Origin: a virus
DNA length: 31,435 nt
Reading direction: 5' to 3' (one strand)
IMG/VR virus record: IMGVR_UViG_3300006917_000092
Span: 1-31,435 of that record
This document shows positions 2,473 to 25,915 of this stretch, piece by piece (the stretch's first letter is position 1; each line of letters opens with the position of its first letter). Both the position numbers and the translations under genes were made by a program. A model generated the notes under the pieces. The model saw nothing but the letters and a program-made list of their open reading frames with translations. It ran no database searches and was not told the DNA's origin.

Positions 2473-4278
2473 ATGGCAACTCTTACTGGCAAGACCATTG
2501 CAGATACATACAAGGATCTGCTTCAGGTCAGCAATGCAAATAGCGGAATTGACGGCACTCTTCGTACTGTTCAAGATGGAGAGGGAACCAATTCTGCATT
2601 ACAACTAAGCAATAGTGCTGTAAACATCAATGGTACTTTCCAGCTAAATGGATCCACTCTCACTGCAACAGCTTCAGCATTGAATGCTGTAACTGACCTG
2701 AGTGGAGTAACTGGTCTCGTAGCAATGACTGGAGGATCTCCAATTGGGAGATCTATTACAGTTGGTACTGGCCTAAGTGTAGCAAATGGTGATGGTGTAA
2801 ATTCTAATCCAGCAATTACACTGGAAACTACTGGAGTTGTTTCTGGAAGTTATGGTCCATTTTCAAATCTAGAAGTAAATGCTAGAGGACAACTAGTAAG
2901 TATTAGTACTCCTGTTTCAGTAAGTGTATCAAACTTTGCTACTACAAAGCTCACTGTTGACAATATTGTTGGAGCATCCGCTACGTTTTCTGGTGGAGTT
3001 TCTGCAAGTACATTTTATGGGGATGGGTCAAATCTGACAAATCTTCCCACTGCACCCGTTTCAGTTTCTGCGTATACTGTAAATAGACTTACTGTTGTTA
3101 GCGCAGCAACAGTAAATGGCATTGTCAGTGCTGTAGCTTTTGTTGGAGATGGTTCAGGTCTATCAAATATCAGTGTAGCTTTTGCCGCTTCAGCAACCAA
3201 TGCAACTAATGCAGTAAACGCTACTAATGCTGTAAGCGCAGTATTTGCTTCATCCGCTACTAATGCAACAAATGCCCTAACGGCTGATTTTGCTACAAGC
3301 GCCACTAATGCTACAAATGCAGTAAGTGCTACGTTTGCCGCTTCAGCTACAAATGCTACAAATGCAGTTTCGGCTGCATTTGCTACTTCTGCCACAAATG
3401 CTACAAATGCGGTCTCTGCTTCATTTGCTACATCAGCTACTGACGCCTTGAATGCAACAAATGCAGTATCAGCACAATTTGCTACAAGTGCCACAAATGC
3501 TACAAATGCAAGTTCGGCTGTATTTGCTACTTCTGCTGCAAATGCTACTAATGCAATAAATGCAACCTCTGCTGTATTTGCTGCTAGTGCTACAAATGCG
3601 GCTAATGCTGTATCTGCTGTTTTTGCCTCAAGCGCATCTAATGCCACTACTGCTGTAAATGTAAGTGGTGGAACTGCTATTCTAACTGCTGCTGACATTT
3701 CTGGAAAAGTTTCTATTGGAAATGGAATAAATATTGTAGGTGCTATTAGTGGTGTAAGCGCAATCTTTACCGGTACTGTAAGTGTAAATGAAATTGATGC
3801 CTCTATTGGTAGTTTCAATAATTCAGTATCAATTGGCGGCTCTCTTAATGTTATAGGTGCTGTAAGTGGTAGCACGGCAGTTTTTACTGGAATTGTTAGT
3901 GCTAGCGCAGTTGCTTTGGGAACTGGGAATTTAGGAAAGAAATTTGCAGTATCCGGAGCCGCAATTGCTACCATTGTAAGCCTAACAGATGGAACTTCAA
4001 TTTCTGTAGACTTCAATACATCTCAGAATTTTGCTGTAATGCTTACAGGAAATAGAACACTTGAAAGTCCTTCAAATTGTGTAGCTGGACAAACTGGTTC
4101 CATTTTCGTCATGCAAAACGTATCTGGTGGAAAGACACTTTCGTTTGGAAGCAACTGGAAGTTTGCTGCCGGTACGGCTCCAACACTGACCACTACAGCT
4201 TCTGCTGTGGATAGACTAGACTACATTGTCTTCTCGTCTACTGCAATTCACACTGTAGCTACCCTTGATGTTCGATAA
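2473..4278 (+). CDS. Tail fibre or appendage protein with Ala/Thr/Asn repeat shaft, 601 aa
   Basis: A fibre-like protein. Residues 1-150 are a Gly/Ser/Thr-rich N-terminal part, followed by GDGSNLTNLP (183-192) and GDGSGLSNIS (225-234), motifs common in phage fibre shafts. Residues 236-395 are about ten imperfect units of FA.SATNATNAVSA, mostly 15 residues. Similar Ala/Ser/Thr repeats form trimeric rods in lambda-type side tail fibres. The last 100 residues (500-601) are nearly the same as the end of the next protein and probably form a C-terminal knob or assembly domain. A good Shine-Dalgarno (aaggag, 2462-2467) precedes the ATG. Direct receptor contact is inferred, not shown. Confidence 0.7.
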   Translation: MATLTGKTIADTYKDLLQVSNANSGIDGTLRTVQDGEGTNSALQLSNSAVNINGTFQLNGSTLTATASALNAVTDLSGVTGLVAMTGGSPIGRSITVGTGLSVANGDGVNSNPAITLETTGVVSGSYGPFSNLEVNARGQLVSISTPVSVSVSNFATTKLTVDNIVGASATFSGGVSASTFYGDGSNLTNLPTAPVSVSAYTVNRLTVVSAATVNGIVSAVAFVGDGSGLSNISVAFAASATNATNAVNATNAVSAVFASSATNATNALTADFATSATNATNAVSATFAASATNATNAVSAAFATSATNATNAVSASFATSATDALNATNAVSAQFATSATNATNASSAVFATSAANATNAINATSAVFAASATNAANAVSAVFASSASNATTAVNVSGGTAILTAADISGKVSIGNGINIVGAISGVSAIFTGTVSVNEIDASIGSFNNSVSIGGSLNVIGAVSGSTAVFTGIVSASAVALGTGNLGKKFAVSGAAIATIVSLTDGTSISVDFNTSQNFAVMLTGNRTLESPSNCVAGQTGSIFVMQNVSGGKTLSFGSNWKFAAGTAPTLTTTASAVDRLDYIVFSSTAIHTVATLDVR

Positions 4279-21719: not shown

Positions 21720-21728
21720 GGTCTTCTT
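21700..21728. terminator. Weak inverted repeat between convergent genes
   Basis: Eight-base arms AAGAAGAC (21700-21707) and GTCTTCTT (21721-21728) flank 13 bases, spanning the end of the holin gene and the end of the small terminase gene. The position between converging operons is where a bidirectional terminator is expected. The stem is AT-rich and no strong T-run follows on either strand, so function is uncertain. Confidence 0.3.
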
Positions 21729-22287
21729 ACTCTTTAGGCTTTTCCTCTTCAATTGTTTCAGTAGAAATGTCGTAGGACATATCTACTTCTTCAATGTCGT
21801 CGGACGCAGACATCTCTTCGGTGTCTTCATCCGGCGACATTTCTGTTTTGGAAGTTTCTTCATCTTCCGGAGACATGGAGAAGAAGCTGCACTTCATGAG
21901 GATACGCATGGCGCGTTCCTCTCCCAAGATCTCAAGGCTCCTGACGATGTCTTCCTCAAGATCCTTGATGCTTTTAGGGTTCTCTGTCTCAATGCCATCC
22001 TTGACTTTGGTGAGAAGCTCTAGAGCCTTTAGGGCGCTCTGAGTGTGGTTGTTGTTCTTGGCATACTCGTACTGCTTCTCAATCTCAAGGATGACATCGA
22101 TGTCAGTGACGCCAGTGCTGTCCAGCTCTGCAATCCTAGCAATGATGTCTGGGTTCTTGAGAAGCTTGCTGCCAGTAACGCTAGCAGATATCTGAGAGTA
22201 TCCGGCAGCCTTTGCCGAGGCTGTAGCGTTGCGCGTTACAAGGTAGTTACGTACAAACTTCTCATGCTTTTCCTGTAGCTGTGGCAT
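21727..22287 (-). CDS. terS: Terminase small subunit with acidic C-terminal tail
   Basis: The DNA-recognition subunit of the packaging motor. Residues 5-55 carry EKHEKFVRNYLVTRNATASA, KAAGYSQISASVTGSKLL and KNPDIIARIAEL, the Terminase_2-type helix-turn-helix pattern. The helical region to about residue 130 would form the oligomerisation part. Residues 138-186 are very acidic with four spaced MS motifs (M138, M150, M159, M170), which is unusual. The gene starts one base after the glycan-fusion stop. It converges with the virion genes, and no large subunit gene is in the window, so the two terminase genes are not adjacent in the usual way. Confidence 0.75.
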   Translation of the reverse strand: MPQLQEKHEKFVRNYLVTRNATASAKAAGYSQISASVTGSKLLKNPDIIARIAELDSTGVTDIDVILEIEKQYEYAKNNNHTQSALKALELLTKVKDGIETENPKSIKDLEEDIVRSLEILGEERAMRILMKCSFFSMSPEDEETSKTEMSPDEDTEEMSASDDIEEVDMSYDISTETIEEEKPKE

Positions 22288-22288
22288 G

Positions 22289-24595
22289 TCAAGCTGCTAC
22301 CTTTGGAAAGTACTCTGAGTAGTACTCCTTTTTTCCGTGATACGACTTGTCGTATAGCTGGGAGATCAGAGTGTCCTTTCCGTGGAAGTGGATGGTCATG
22401 TCGATTTCCTTGTTGTCGAATAGACGCTCACAGTCCTGAGCTAGTGCTAGAAGCTCTCCAGTAGTCCAGAAGGACTTGCCGTGACACTCTACGGGAATGT
22501 ACTTCTTTCTATCGTCTTCAAGCTTCTCATTCTTCATCTCTTCCGCCATATTTGGGATCGAAGCATCGAACCCAAAGAGATGAAACTGACGGAAGCCGAC
22601 AATGTGAAACATGCCGATAGCTCTCATGGCAGAGCAAGTACCTCCAGTTACAAACGTAGTATCATCACCTAGATCAAGCTTTGTCTCGACGGTGAAGTTC
22701 TTTGGATTGGCGGCTTGCTGGACAGCCTCCGAAAAAGCATGCCAACCGTAGATGTTGTCTGTCTTCTCCATCAGAAGCTTTGTCACGCTTGTGTCGGTCA
22801 TTGATGCCAGCAGGAACTTGGTCTCCTTTCGGATATCCTTGAATAGTTCAGTACGTACAATGCCGTGTGTAGACGTACCAGTAACTGGTCTTGGATCTAG
22901 GATCACGCAAGCATATGGAACAATCCCATTCTTTAGGAGAGTTGGGTAGCTATGCTTGACACAGATGATCTTTGAGTTGTGCTTCCTTGAGAGTTCCTTT
23001 ACCTTCTCAAAGTCGGTGGACGGACCAGCAGAGACGATGATGGCATGCTCGTCATTGGTAGTGTACCTTCGCACAAACTTCCAATCCTTGATAAGCTTCA
23101 TGTTCTCCTTGATGTTGTTAAGGATATACTCCTTTGGCATGCTGTCCCTTGGCTGGACAACAATAGGAACCATCATGACATCCTTGCGGATATCCTCAAG
23201 TTCCTTGTTGTTCAGAAGGACAACTAGATGGGTAATACCTCCACCTTTTACCTTGTCAGTTGAAGGCACAACAGCAATGCGCTTTCCTTCATCCTTAAGC
23301 TTCTTGAATAGCCTGTTAGTGCCTTGATGTTCTTCGCCCAAGATATTTCCATCAGCATCCTTTGAGAAGTAATCGTCAAACACGATGACTGGGACATTCT
23401 TCAGGTTCTCATAATCGGACACTACAGTAGTCTCGCTGTGACCACCGTCAATGTAGGCAAAGTCAATTGGTGGCAGATTTGCAACACTATTGGTTAGTGT
23501 TACCTTTGAGTCTCCCTTGTGGAGTTCACAGGTAAAGGCCTTGCCCTTCTCCTTCATCTTATCAGCAAACTGCATTAGACGCTCACGAATAGCGTCAATT
23601 GTGTTATGCCTCTTGGAGTTCAGTTCAACCTTGTCTAGTTCCTCCGTGGCCTCTTCGAAGAGATCATAGCCTGTGTAGTGAACGGCATCAAGCGTCTCAA
23701 AGGCAGCTAGGGACATCTCAATGGCCCTGCCACCGTTCCAAGTTCCAACCTCTACGATGTGAGCCTTCTTGCCGTCCTTCTTGCCTACGTACTGTCGGAC
23801 TAGATCCGCAAGCTTCTTGTATCTACCGGCCTTGACATCTGGAGCTACTCCAGTTGGAGTGTCCTTAAGGTTGCCCTTGAAGTGTGTCATGTACTGGCTT
23901 AGGGGAGACTGTGCAAATGCTGCAAGCCCTACGGCATTGGCAGAAAGGTTTTGTACGTGTGCACCATGAGCTTGGTAGATCTTAAGGAGACGCTCAAATA
24001 TGAAGCCATCATGCCATTCCCTGTAGGCTGTAACCTCTCCAATGTCATAGCAGCCACGAAGATCAGCCAGAAGAAATGGACTGACATTCTTGTTGAACAT
24101 GTTGAAGGCAATAAAGGATGTCTCGCTGTAGTCAGCATCCTTTCGACCCAGATGAACAATGTCTGCATTTCTGGCTAGGATCTCTAGTAGCTTGTCCTTT
24201 GAGAACGGCTTTGTCGTAATAGTGTCGGCGTCAAGCCAGCACAGCCAGTTGCCGTGTTCCACAGTCTCATCGTACAGGGCATACTGCGTAAGCGCGTAGA
24301 CCTTGTGGCACCACTTGACTGCATCCAGACGCCAGTTGTACGGAGTCTTTCCACCCATCGTGCCATCGTACGTCTTCATGCGATCACGGTAAGAAAGCAT
24401 GGGCTTGACTAGATTGAGGTTCCTGTACTCAATCTTAGGTGAAGCTGGAAAATCATTTACTGTCTCAGGCGAGCAGTCGTGGAAGTACGCTACAAGCTTT
24501 AGATCATCCTTCCAGTTCTCTACGACAGAGAGCAGCATGTTCTTGGCATACTTCTTGAAACCTTCTTCGCTAAACGAAGTCACAAACGTAATCAT
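22289..24595 (-). CDS. Three-domain protein: glycosyltransferase, SAM methyltransferase, DUF115/Maf-like
   Basis: A 768-residue fusion. Residues 1-245 look like a nucleotide-sugar glycosyltransferase with a DxD motif (WLDADT, 120-125) and REWHDGFIFERL. Residues 275-455 look like a class I methyltransferase (IVEVGTWNGG, 280-289; FAYIDGGHS, 379-387; VIVFDDYF). Residues 515-685 look like the DUF115/MptE-Maf group (AIIVSAGPSTDF, 518-529; VTGGTCSAMRAIGM, 649-662; HLFGFDAS). The expected role is building or capping a methylated glycan on virion or host surface. The start is ATG at 24595, overlapping the upstream stop as ATGA. A longer in-frame start at 24640 would overlap that gene by 49 bases and is less likely. 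The substrate is unknown. Confidence 0.7.
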   Translation of the reverse strand: MITFVTSFSEEGFKKYAKNMLLSVVENWKDDLKLVAYFHDCSPETVNDFPASPKIEYRNLNLVKPMLSYRDRMKTYDGTMGGKTPYNWRLDAVKWCHKVYALTQYALYDETVEHGNWLCWLDADTITTKPFSKDKLLEILARNADIVHLGRKDADYSETSFIAFNMFNKNVSPFLLADLRGCYDIGEVTAYREWHDGFIFERLLKIYQAHGAHVQNLSANAVGLAAFAQSPLSQYMTHFKGNLKDTPTGVAPDVKAGRYKKLADLVRQYVGKKDGKKAHIVEVGTWNGGRAIEMSLAAFETLDAVHYTGYDLFEEATEELDKVELNSKRHNTIDAIRERLMQFADKMKEKGKAFTCELHKGDSKVTLTNSVANLPPIDFAYIDGGHSETTVVSDYENLKNVPVIVFDDYFSKDADGNILGEEHQGTNRLFKKLKDEGKRIAVVPSTDKVKGGGITHLVVLLNNKELEDIRKDVMMVPIVVQPRDSMPKEYILNNIKENMKLIKDWKFVRRYTTNDEHAIIVSAGPSTDFEKVKELSRKHNSKIICVKHSYPTLLKNGIVPYACVILDPRPVTGTSTHGIVRTELFKDIRKETKFLLASMTDTSVTKLLMEKTDNIYGWHAFSEAVQQAANPKNFTVETKLDLGDDTTFVTGGTCSAMRAIGMFHIVGFRQFHLFGFDASIPNMAEEMKNEKLEDDRKKYIPVECHGKSFWTTGELLALAQDCERLFDNKEIDMTIHFHGKDTLISQLYDKSYHGKKEYYSEYFPKVAA

Positions 24596-25513: not shown

Positions 25514-25915
25514 TCAGTTGATATCAAGCTTCTTTGCGTTCTTCTTTTCTTGATCGATGATATCAATCTGCACTCGTAGGAGACCATTCACGAACTCCGC
25601 TGATGTAGCCTTGGAGTTATGTGGAGTAGTGAACTTGCGCTTGAATGGTCTGCGAGCAATACGACGCTCAAAGTATACGTGTTCTAGATTGTGTCCTAGC
25701 GTGTCATCCCTTTCAACCGGATTGCCAGTGATAACGAGTCCCATATCGGTGACCTCAATATCAATCTCTTCTCGACTGAATCCAGCTAGGGCGAGTTCGA
25801 CATAGAATGAATCTCCCTTTCGATAGATGTTGTAGGGAGGATAGGCTTCTTGATTTAGAGACAGTGGATTCATCATAGCCTCAATGTCGAAGTCCTTTAG
25901 AAGTCGTGTCAGCAT
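25514..25915 (-). CDS. Small heat-shock protein Hsp20
   Basis: An ATP-independent chaperone of the alpha-crystallin/IbpA group that holds unfolding proteins. The 133-residue protein has the alpha-crystallin domain at about 27-120: YPPYNIYRKGDSFYVELALA (25-44), GFSREEIDIEV, GLVITG, FERRIARRPFKRKF, and FVNGLLRVQI (108-117), where NGLL matches the family's A...GvL signature. The short N-terminal arm (MLTRLLKDFDIEAMMNPLS) is usual for phage versions. A very good Shine-Dalgarno (AGGAGG, 9 bases before ATG) is present. A sigma70-like promoter and a palindrome lie upstream. A role in folding virion proteins is the common proposal for phage Hsp20. Confidence 0.85.
   Translation of the reverse strand: MLTRLLKDFDIEAMMNPLSLNQEAYPPYNIYRKGDSFYVELALAGFSREEIDIEVTDMGLVITGNPVERDDTLGHNLEHVYFERRIARRPFKRKFTTPHNSKATSAEFVNGLLRVQIDIIDQEKKNAKKLDIN

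Follow-up and report, generated by a model that had tools for sequence, protein, structure and literature searches.

A glycosyltransferase-methyltransferase-DUF115 fusion protein encoded by a core gene of a large group of uncultured phages

Why does a virus carry a glycosyltransferase, a methyltransferase and a Maf-like domain in one polypeptide, and what could such a protein modify? The question is raised by one gene of the window, which is a viral record 31,435 bases long. The gene occupies positions 22289..24595; an earlier note on this DNA had given exactly these coordinates and omitted the strand, which is the minus strand. It is a single intact open reading frame of 768 amino acids starting from the ATG at 24595, with the stop (TAG/TAA side) at 22289, and the plus-strand reading of the same interval is packed with stop codons. 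All sequence stretches quoted earlier are found in the translation (WLDADT at residue 120, VEVGTWNGG at 281, YIDGGHS at 381, SAGPS at 522 and TGGT at 650). Gene calls in this analysis are mechanical, and motif assignments are based on alignments. The proposal that three domains share one chain is confirmed by Pfam for two of them, by AlphaFold and Foldseek for the glycosyltransferase, and by the single reading frame. A frame error that fused separate genes is ruled out, because the same domain order, whose recurrence had been suggested as a check, forms one open reading frame at 193 related loci, and all three domains are under purifying selection as judged from dN/dS in close pairs.

The N-terminal domain (residues 1-245, 23861..24595, minus strand) has a GT-A fold similar to those of families GT6 and GT8. 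The AlphaFold model of residues 1-262, built from a 45-sequence alignment, has a pLDDT of 90.6 and a pTM of 0.87, and Foldseek returned 313 matches to it in the PDB at E <= 0.001, led by GT-A glycosyltransferases. The top match is the GT6 alpha-1,3-galactosyltransferase 1k4v (E 1.8e-8), followed by the GT8-like xylosyltransferase 4wlm and by BoGT6a (4ayl). The TM-scores are about 0.5; therefore the GT-A fold is settled and the substrate is not. The DxD motif, D122-A-D124 (24224..24232, minus strand), has both aspartates invariant in 45 diverse sequences; the domain recognized in the earlier note as DxD glycosyltransferase-like is a GT-A domain by its modeled fold as well. Pfam has no family match to residues 1-245 and a PDB profile search with this domain gave no match, so that the relation to the CAZy families GT6 and GT8 is one of fold likeness only. 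The identity to 1k4v, 4ayl and 4wlm is 10-12%, and BoGT6a is metal-independent, in contrast to the phage domain with its invariant DxD. A disordered linker follows (residues 246-262, 23810..23860, minus strand; pLDDT below 50 at 242-262).

The middle domain (residues 263-462, 23210..23809, minus strand) belongs to the Methyltransf_24 family, in agreement with the SAM-dependent methyltransferase part proposed earlier. PF13578 matches residues 281-409 with E 9.5e-9 and 36.5 bits, above the curated cut-off of 26.3. The SAM-binding motif I, GTWNGGR (residues 284-290, 23726..23746, minus strand), is retained even in relatives that have lost the active site. The predicted metal and catalytic site consists of D-G-G-H at residues 383-386 (23438..23449, minus strand) and D-D at residues 407-408 (23372..23377, minus strand), the states of which were counted across the members of the family. 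In the Mg-dependent sugar O-methyltransferases ThnM1 and MycE the active site is formed by Asp275, His278 and Asp304 (PMC9275233). The spacing Asp383-x-x-His386...Asp407/408 is that of these enzymes, and the domain is thus probably a Mg-dependent sugar O-methyltransferase; a complete site, assigned by spacing, occurs in 94 proteins, that of the window among them. Similarity to the TylF-like MycE/ThnM1 group extends to the Methyltransf_24 family itself and to a weak TylF match in the relative L004. Unlike those enzymes, the phage domain is embedded between two glycosyltransferase domains and has no sequence match in the PDB, where searches with the whole protein and with domain profiles gave nothing useful.

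The C-terminal domain (residues 476-760, 22316..23170, minus strand) is a DUF115/MptE-like/Maf_flag10 domain. PF01973 matches residues 491-681 with E 1.9e-16, above the curated cut-off, and is matched by all 45 diverse members. The AlphaFold model of residues 464-768 has a pLDDT of 89.0 and a pTM of 0.87. Its first Foldseek match is Maf of Magnetospirillum (5MU5; E 1.8e-8, TM 0.55), and the second is the MptE enzyme of M. jannaschii, HPPK 8sd5 (E 7e-6), so the DUF115/Maf-like assignment of the earlier note stands, with Maf nearer in fold than MptE. Among 239 members the motif S-T-H-G (residues 575-578, 22862..22873, minus strand) is present in 238 and LDPR (566-569) in all, and TGGTC is near-invariant; the DxD of the glycosyltransferase domain is near-invariant too, and no motif of the protein is better conserved than those of DUF115. 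The only flagellin-related or NCBIfam hint for this domain is PseD, which matches one stretch with 28.9 bits (E 4e-7) against a cut-off of 670 bits, and the protein does not belong to the full-length PseD family.

The Pfam family name and the second-best fold match would also suit an MptE-like pyrophosphokinase acting on a pterin or a similar alcohol, in which case the fusion would be a small-molecule enzyme. We regard this as very improbable: Maf matches better, the PseD hint, far below its cut-off as it is, points the same way, and the fusion to and pairing with glycosyltransferases is constant, whereas MptE/HPPK is a stand-alone pterin enzyme with no glycosyltransferase partners and a weaker match. 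Maf shares with the phage protein the DUF115 fold and a Rossmann-type domain that precedes it; in Maf it lies at the N-terminus and has a degenerate Rossmann fold that weakly resembles methyltransferases (PMC11339370). The Maf layout of degenerate Rossmann N-domain, DUF115 and helical C-domain is not reproduced, however. The phage protein has a GT-A domain at its N-terminus, its methyltransferase site is often intact, its chain ends soon after DUF115 with no helical C-terminal domain seen, and it is encoded in phage genomes with no flagellin.

How widespread is this architecture? The IMG/VR scans found at least 532 relatives with the single protein and at least 571 with the alignment, and 80 were taken from each scan. 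A near-full-length member is present at 239 loci, a count that includes related contigs: 193 have the glycosyltransferase-methyltransferase-DUF115 order, and 46 consist of the glycosyltransferase and DUF115 domains without the methyltransferase. In an alignment with L181, a short linker at the position of residues 246-262 connects the glycosyltransferase to DUF115 in the two-domain relatives. The fusion gene was found in 15 of 17 contigs picked by an unrelated tail gene, and in all 12 of those that are at least 43 kb long; the two contigs without it measure 37.6 and 37.8 kb. The fusion gene is therefore a core gene of this phage group, a large and diverse set of uncultured bacterial viruses that are probably marine.

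The full protein is found in no isolate of a 50,697-record phage set, and isolated phages gave no tblastn match to the DUF115 part or to the L004 protein. That set holds only two relatives, both of the glycosyltransferase part. The one in Pelagibacter phage Mosig is a stand-alone gene in a glycan cluster with GT8-like, FkbM methyltransferase and sulfotransferase genes, and the one in MW202713 adjoins other glycosyltransferase and PLP genes. UniProt includes four probable members from uncultured phages, A0A6J7X5Q0 (714 aa), A0A6J7XC21, A0A6J5PVH5 and A0A6J5L5C1, which were identified by fold and have only the automatic names "methyltransferase domain" or "MptE-like". A search of cellular genome contigs gave no relative of the whole protein, and the DUF115 part led to two phage-like contigs inside metagenome-assembled genomes. 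These contigs, L180 and L181, are filed as Sneathiella and Flavobacteriaceae; the module lies amid phage genes in them, and they resemble phage contigs that had been assigned to bacterial bins. Rhizobium plasmids carry a 26% relative of the glycosyltransferase domain alone. The nearest isolated relatives of the window tail protein, at 29-34% identity, are from phages of Gammaproteobacteria, Pelagibacter and Roseobacter, and the window reductase is 68% identical to those of Roseobacter-group phages; on these grounds a marine alphaproteobacterial host is a guess. Neither the fusion nor DUF115 in phages was found in the literature searched, which was covered in part. The domains are known individually; their three-part order is absent from that literature, and its position is conserved across a large group of phages.

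The methyltransferase is the variable part of the protein, a feature that the earlier note had missed. Of the 239 members, only 94 have it intact; in 99 it is missing active-site residues, and 46 lack it altogether. In a tree of the glycosyltransferase and DUF115 columns, built from 53 representatives under 80% identity, accounting for the missing domain takes a minimum of four changes, on branches with good support. Most of the 99 members with a lost site have a separate methyltransferase gene nearby. In the clade of L004 (78 members) D383 is always replaced by Gly and D408 by His or Asn, GTWNGGR is retained, and a Methyltransf_23 gene lies directly downstream of the fusion in 77 of the 78 loci. 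L256 and L257 combine a decayed built-in copy with a stand-alone methyltransferase of the same family elsewhere in the locus (LDGGHS...FDDYF), which in L257 is truncated by the locus end. L217 and L227, from which the domain is absent, have a Methyltransf_24 gene in the locus, and an FkbM gene occurs in L217 and in the L224 type. No separate methyltransferase was seen in the loci of the L181 type, the L215 type, L225/L219, L254 and 14 members designated NN, which are fragments; absent neighbors in such loci are thus weak evidence. In the 27 loci of the L181 type a further conserved gene, of 302 aa, lies directly downstream, and a cytidylyltransferase and a cupin resembling mannose-6-phosphate isomerase are encoded nearby. 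Genes like these two that accompany the two-domain form, as in L188:8854-9270 and L208:8275-8655, could supply a sugar nucleotide.

A Pfam analysis of the neighbors of 25 intact representatives found no methyltransferase among the best 25 of 37 families. Among the 28 representatives that lack an intact domain, 21 have a separate methyltransferase, against none of the 25 whose domain is intact; corrected for ancestry, this comparison is reduced to four independent pairs and is not significant. A strict rule, by which every member would have either an intact built-in or a separate methyltransferase, was rejected accordingly, and only a tendency is left. Both sugar-transfer domains thus stay in place throughout, and methyl transfer is a step that can be dropped or relocated.

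Could the methyltransferase and DUF115 parts be mainly scaffolds, with only the GT-A domain and its GT8-like partner at work? The 99 members without the active site keep the SAM-binding motif, and the median dN/dS of 0.12 in close pairs means that the decayed domain is still maintained; the N-terminal domain of Maf, moreover, is itself a degenerate methyltransferase-like fold (PMC11339370). The intact methyltransferase, however, is the most constrained of the three domains (median dN/dS 0.05), with a complete site in the window and 93 other proteins, and the motifs of DUF115 are better conserved than any others. We therefore consider a purely structural role of these parts unlikely.

The GT8-like partner is encoded immediately upstream by P0002 (24592..25416, minus strand; phrog_28018, E 5e-41). 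Its stop overlaps the start of the fusion gene (ATGA), as noted earlier, and its ATG is one codon after the listed TTG. The Glyco_transf_8 match of the window gene is weak (E 3e-4, below the cut-off), and that of its relative in L004 is above the cut-off. A homologue lies near the fusion gene on the same strand in 227 of the 239 loci. The gene for the terminase small subunit (21727..22287, minus strand; PF03592, E 2.5e-13) follows downstream and is near the fusion gene in 144 loci; an Hsp20-like small chaperone (25514..25915, minus strand; PF00011, E 1.5e-12) is encoded upstream and is found in 101 loci. The minus-strand order is Cas4-type nuclease, endonuclease, class II ribonucleotide reductase, Hsp20, GT8-like enzyme, fusion and terminase small subunit, and the lysis and structural genes converge on this module from the plus strand.

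In T-even phages glycosyltransferases glycosylate the phage DNA. The fusion gene lies on the replication side, next to the ribonucleotide reductase and Cas4-type nuclease genes, which would fit a similar role in making hypermodified bases that protect against restriction. No gene of the thymidylate-synthase family, to which the dCMP/dUMP hydroxymethylases belong, was found in 16 long contigs of the group, whereas the control was positive in 9 of 14 genomes, and Maf-type domains act on proteins. DNA hypermodification is thus a most improbable role for the module.

We propose that the fusion acts as a dual glycosyltransferase, with sugar O-methylation as an optional built-in activity, and that together with the GT8-like enzyme it produces a short, methylated glycan whose carrier is most likely a virion protein; we put the probability of this reading at a little under one half. 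In this scheme, nucleotide-sugar donors would provide hexose-type sugars to the N-terminal GT-A domain and its GT8-like partner, and the middle domain would O-methylate a sugar with the help of a divalent metal and SAM. The DUF115 domain, which is Maf/sialyltransferase-like, could then add an acidic sugar (Kdo or a nonulosonic acid) taken from a host CMP-sugar. Maf places nonulosonic acids directly on Ser/Thr residues of proteins, and CbMaf accepts Kdo too (PMC11339370). The 16 long contigs (52.8-62.4 kb) contain neither NeuB nor a CMP-NulO/Kdo synthetase gene (CTP_transf_3), and hence the activated sugar of the Maf-like domain would come from the host; the "self-contained" enzyme imagined earlier is not supported.

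The acceptor would most likely be a protein of the virion that receives its glycan in the cytoplasm, prior to assembly. Mycobacteriophage capsids and tail tubes are reported to be glycosylated by glycosyltransferases whose genes adjoin an O-methyltransferase gene (Freeman et al. 2023, cited in PMC11600133); these are separate genes, and PMC11600133 names no Maf-like domain. This precedent, the core status of the fusion and its location next to structural genes all favor a virion acceptor. The main rival explanation places the glycan on the infected cell: the enzymes would then assemble or cap LPS core, O-antigen or exopolysaccharide in the host envelope, against superinfection or against receptors that trap progeny. 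The glycan cluster of Mosig and the glycosyltransferase/PLP neighbors in MW202713 argue for it, as do the closest folds of the GT-A domain, which transfer sugars to glycans, and Kdo, which would be a natural donor in Gram-negative hosts. Since the fusion is a core gene of a broad, deeply diverged group and host surface glycans vary, a constant target such as the virion fits better; besides, neither a membrane segment nor a flippase or polymerase was noticed beside the gene. Modification of the host envelope is possible, at clearly longer odds than the glycan-making module acting on the virion.

A candidate acceptor, and only that, is the fibre-like protein encoded at 2473-4278. It is the most Ser/Thr-rich of the long structural proteins checked in the window (27% S+T, with SATNATNAVSA-type repeats), and its gene contains about ten imperfect 45-nt repeats of the FAASATNATNAVSA type at 3172-3656. 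Counterparts that are also Ser/Thr-rich occur in three annotated long contigs of the group. We tentatively suggest Maf-type O-glycosylation of a phage protein, whereby the core fusion and its GT8-like partner would put a methylated glycan with a host-derived acidic nine- or eight-carbon sugar on a virion protein such as this fibre throughout the uncultured group, a more specific scheme that we hold to be doubtful. If the proposed function is right, a glycan-making module is fixed in the basic gene set of large, diverse, uncultured and probably marine phages, and it shows a fused methyltransferase decaying, being lost or being replaced by separate genes while the sugar-transfer domains stay constant. 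A Maf-type domain, known from flagellin glycosylation, would then operate in a phage setting, with the virus particle as a possible target.

Several minor observations concern the surroundings of the module. The record of L106 (G004) contains at 31311-32723 a second, broken glycosyltransferase-methyltransferase copy; it has three stops, is 47% identical to the window protein and lies some 15 kb away from the intact copy. A PKHD-type 2OG-Fe(II) oxygenase gene lies near the module at L027:4113-4685 and in 97 loci, none of them of the L004 clade. The ribonucleotide reductase beside the module varies among lineages, from class II in the window to other large-subunit and beta-subunit types in L035, L060 and their relatives. 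A GroES-like co-chaperonin gene, judged by eye, stands beside the structural genes in G002 (L166:15408-15824), and similar genes are present in G001 and G003.
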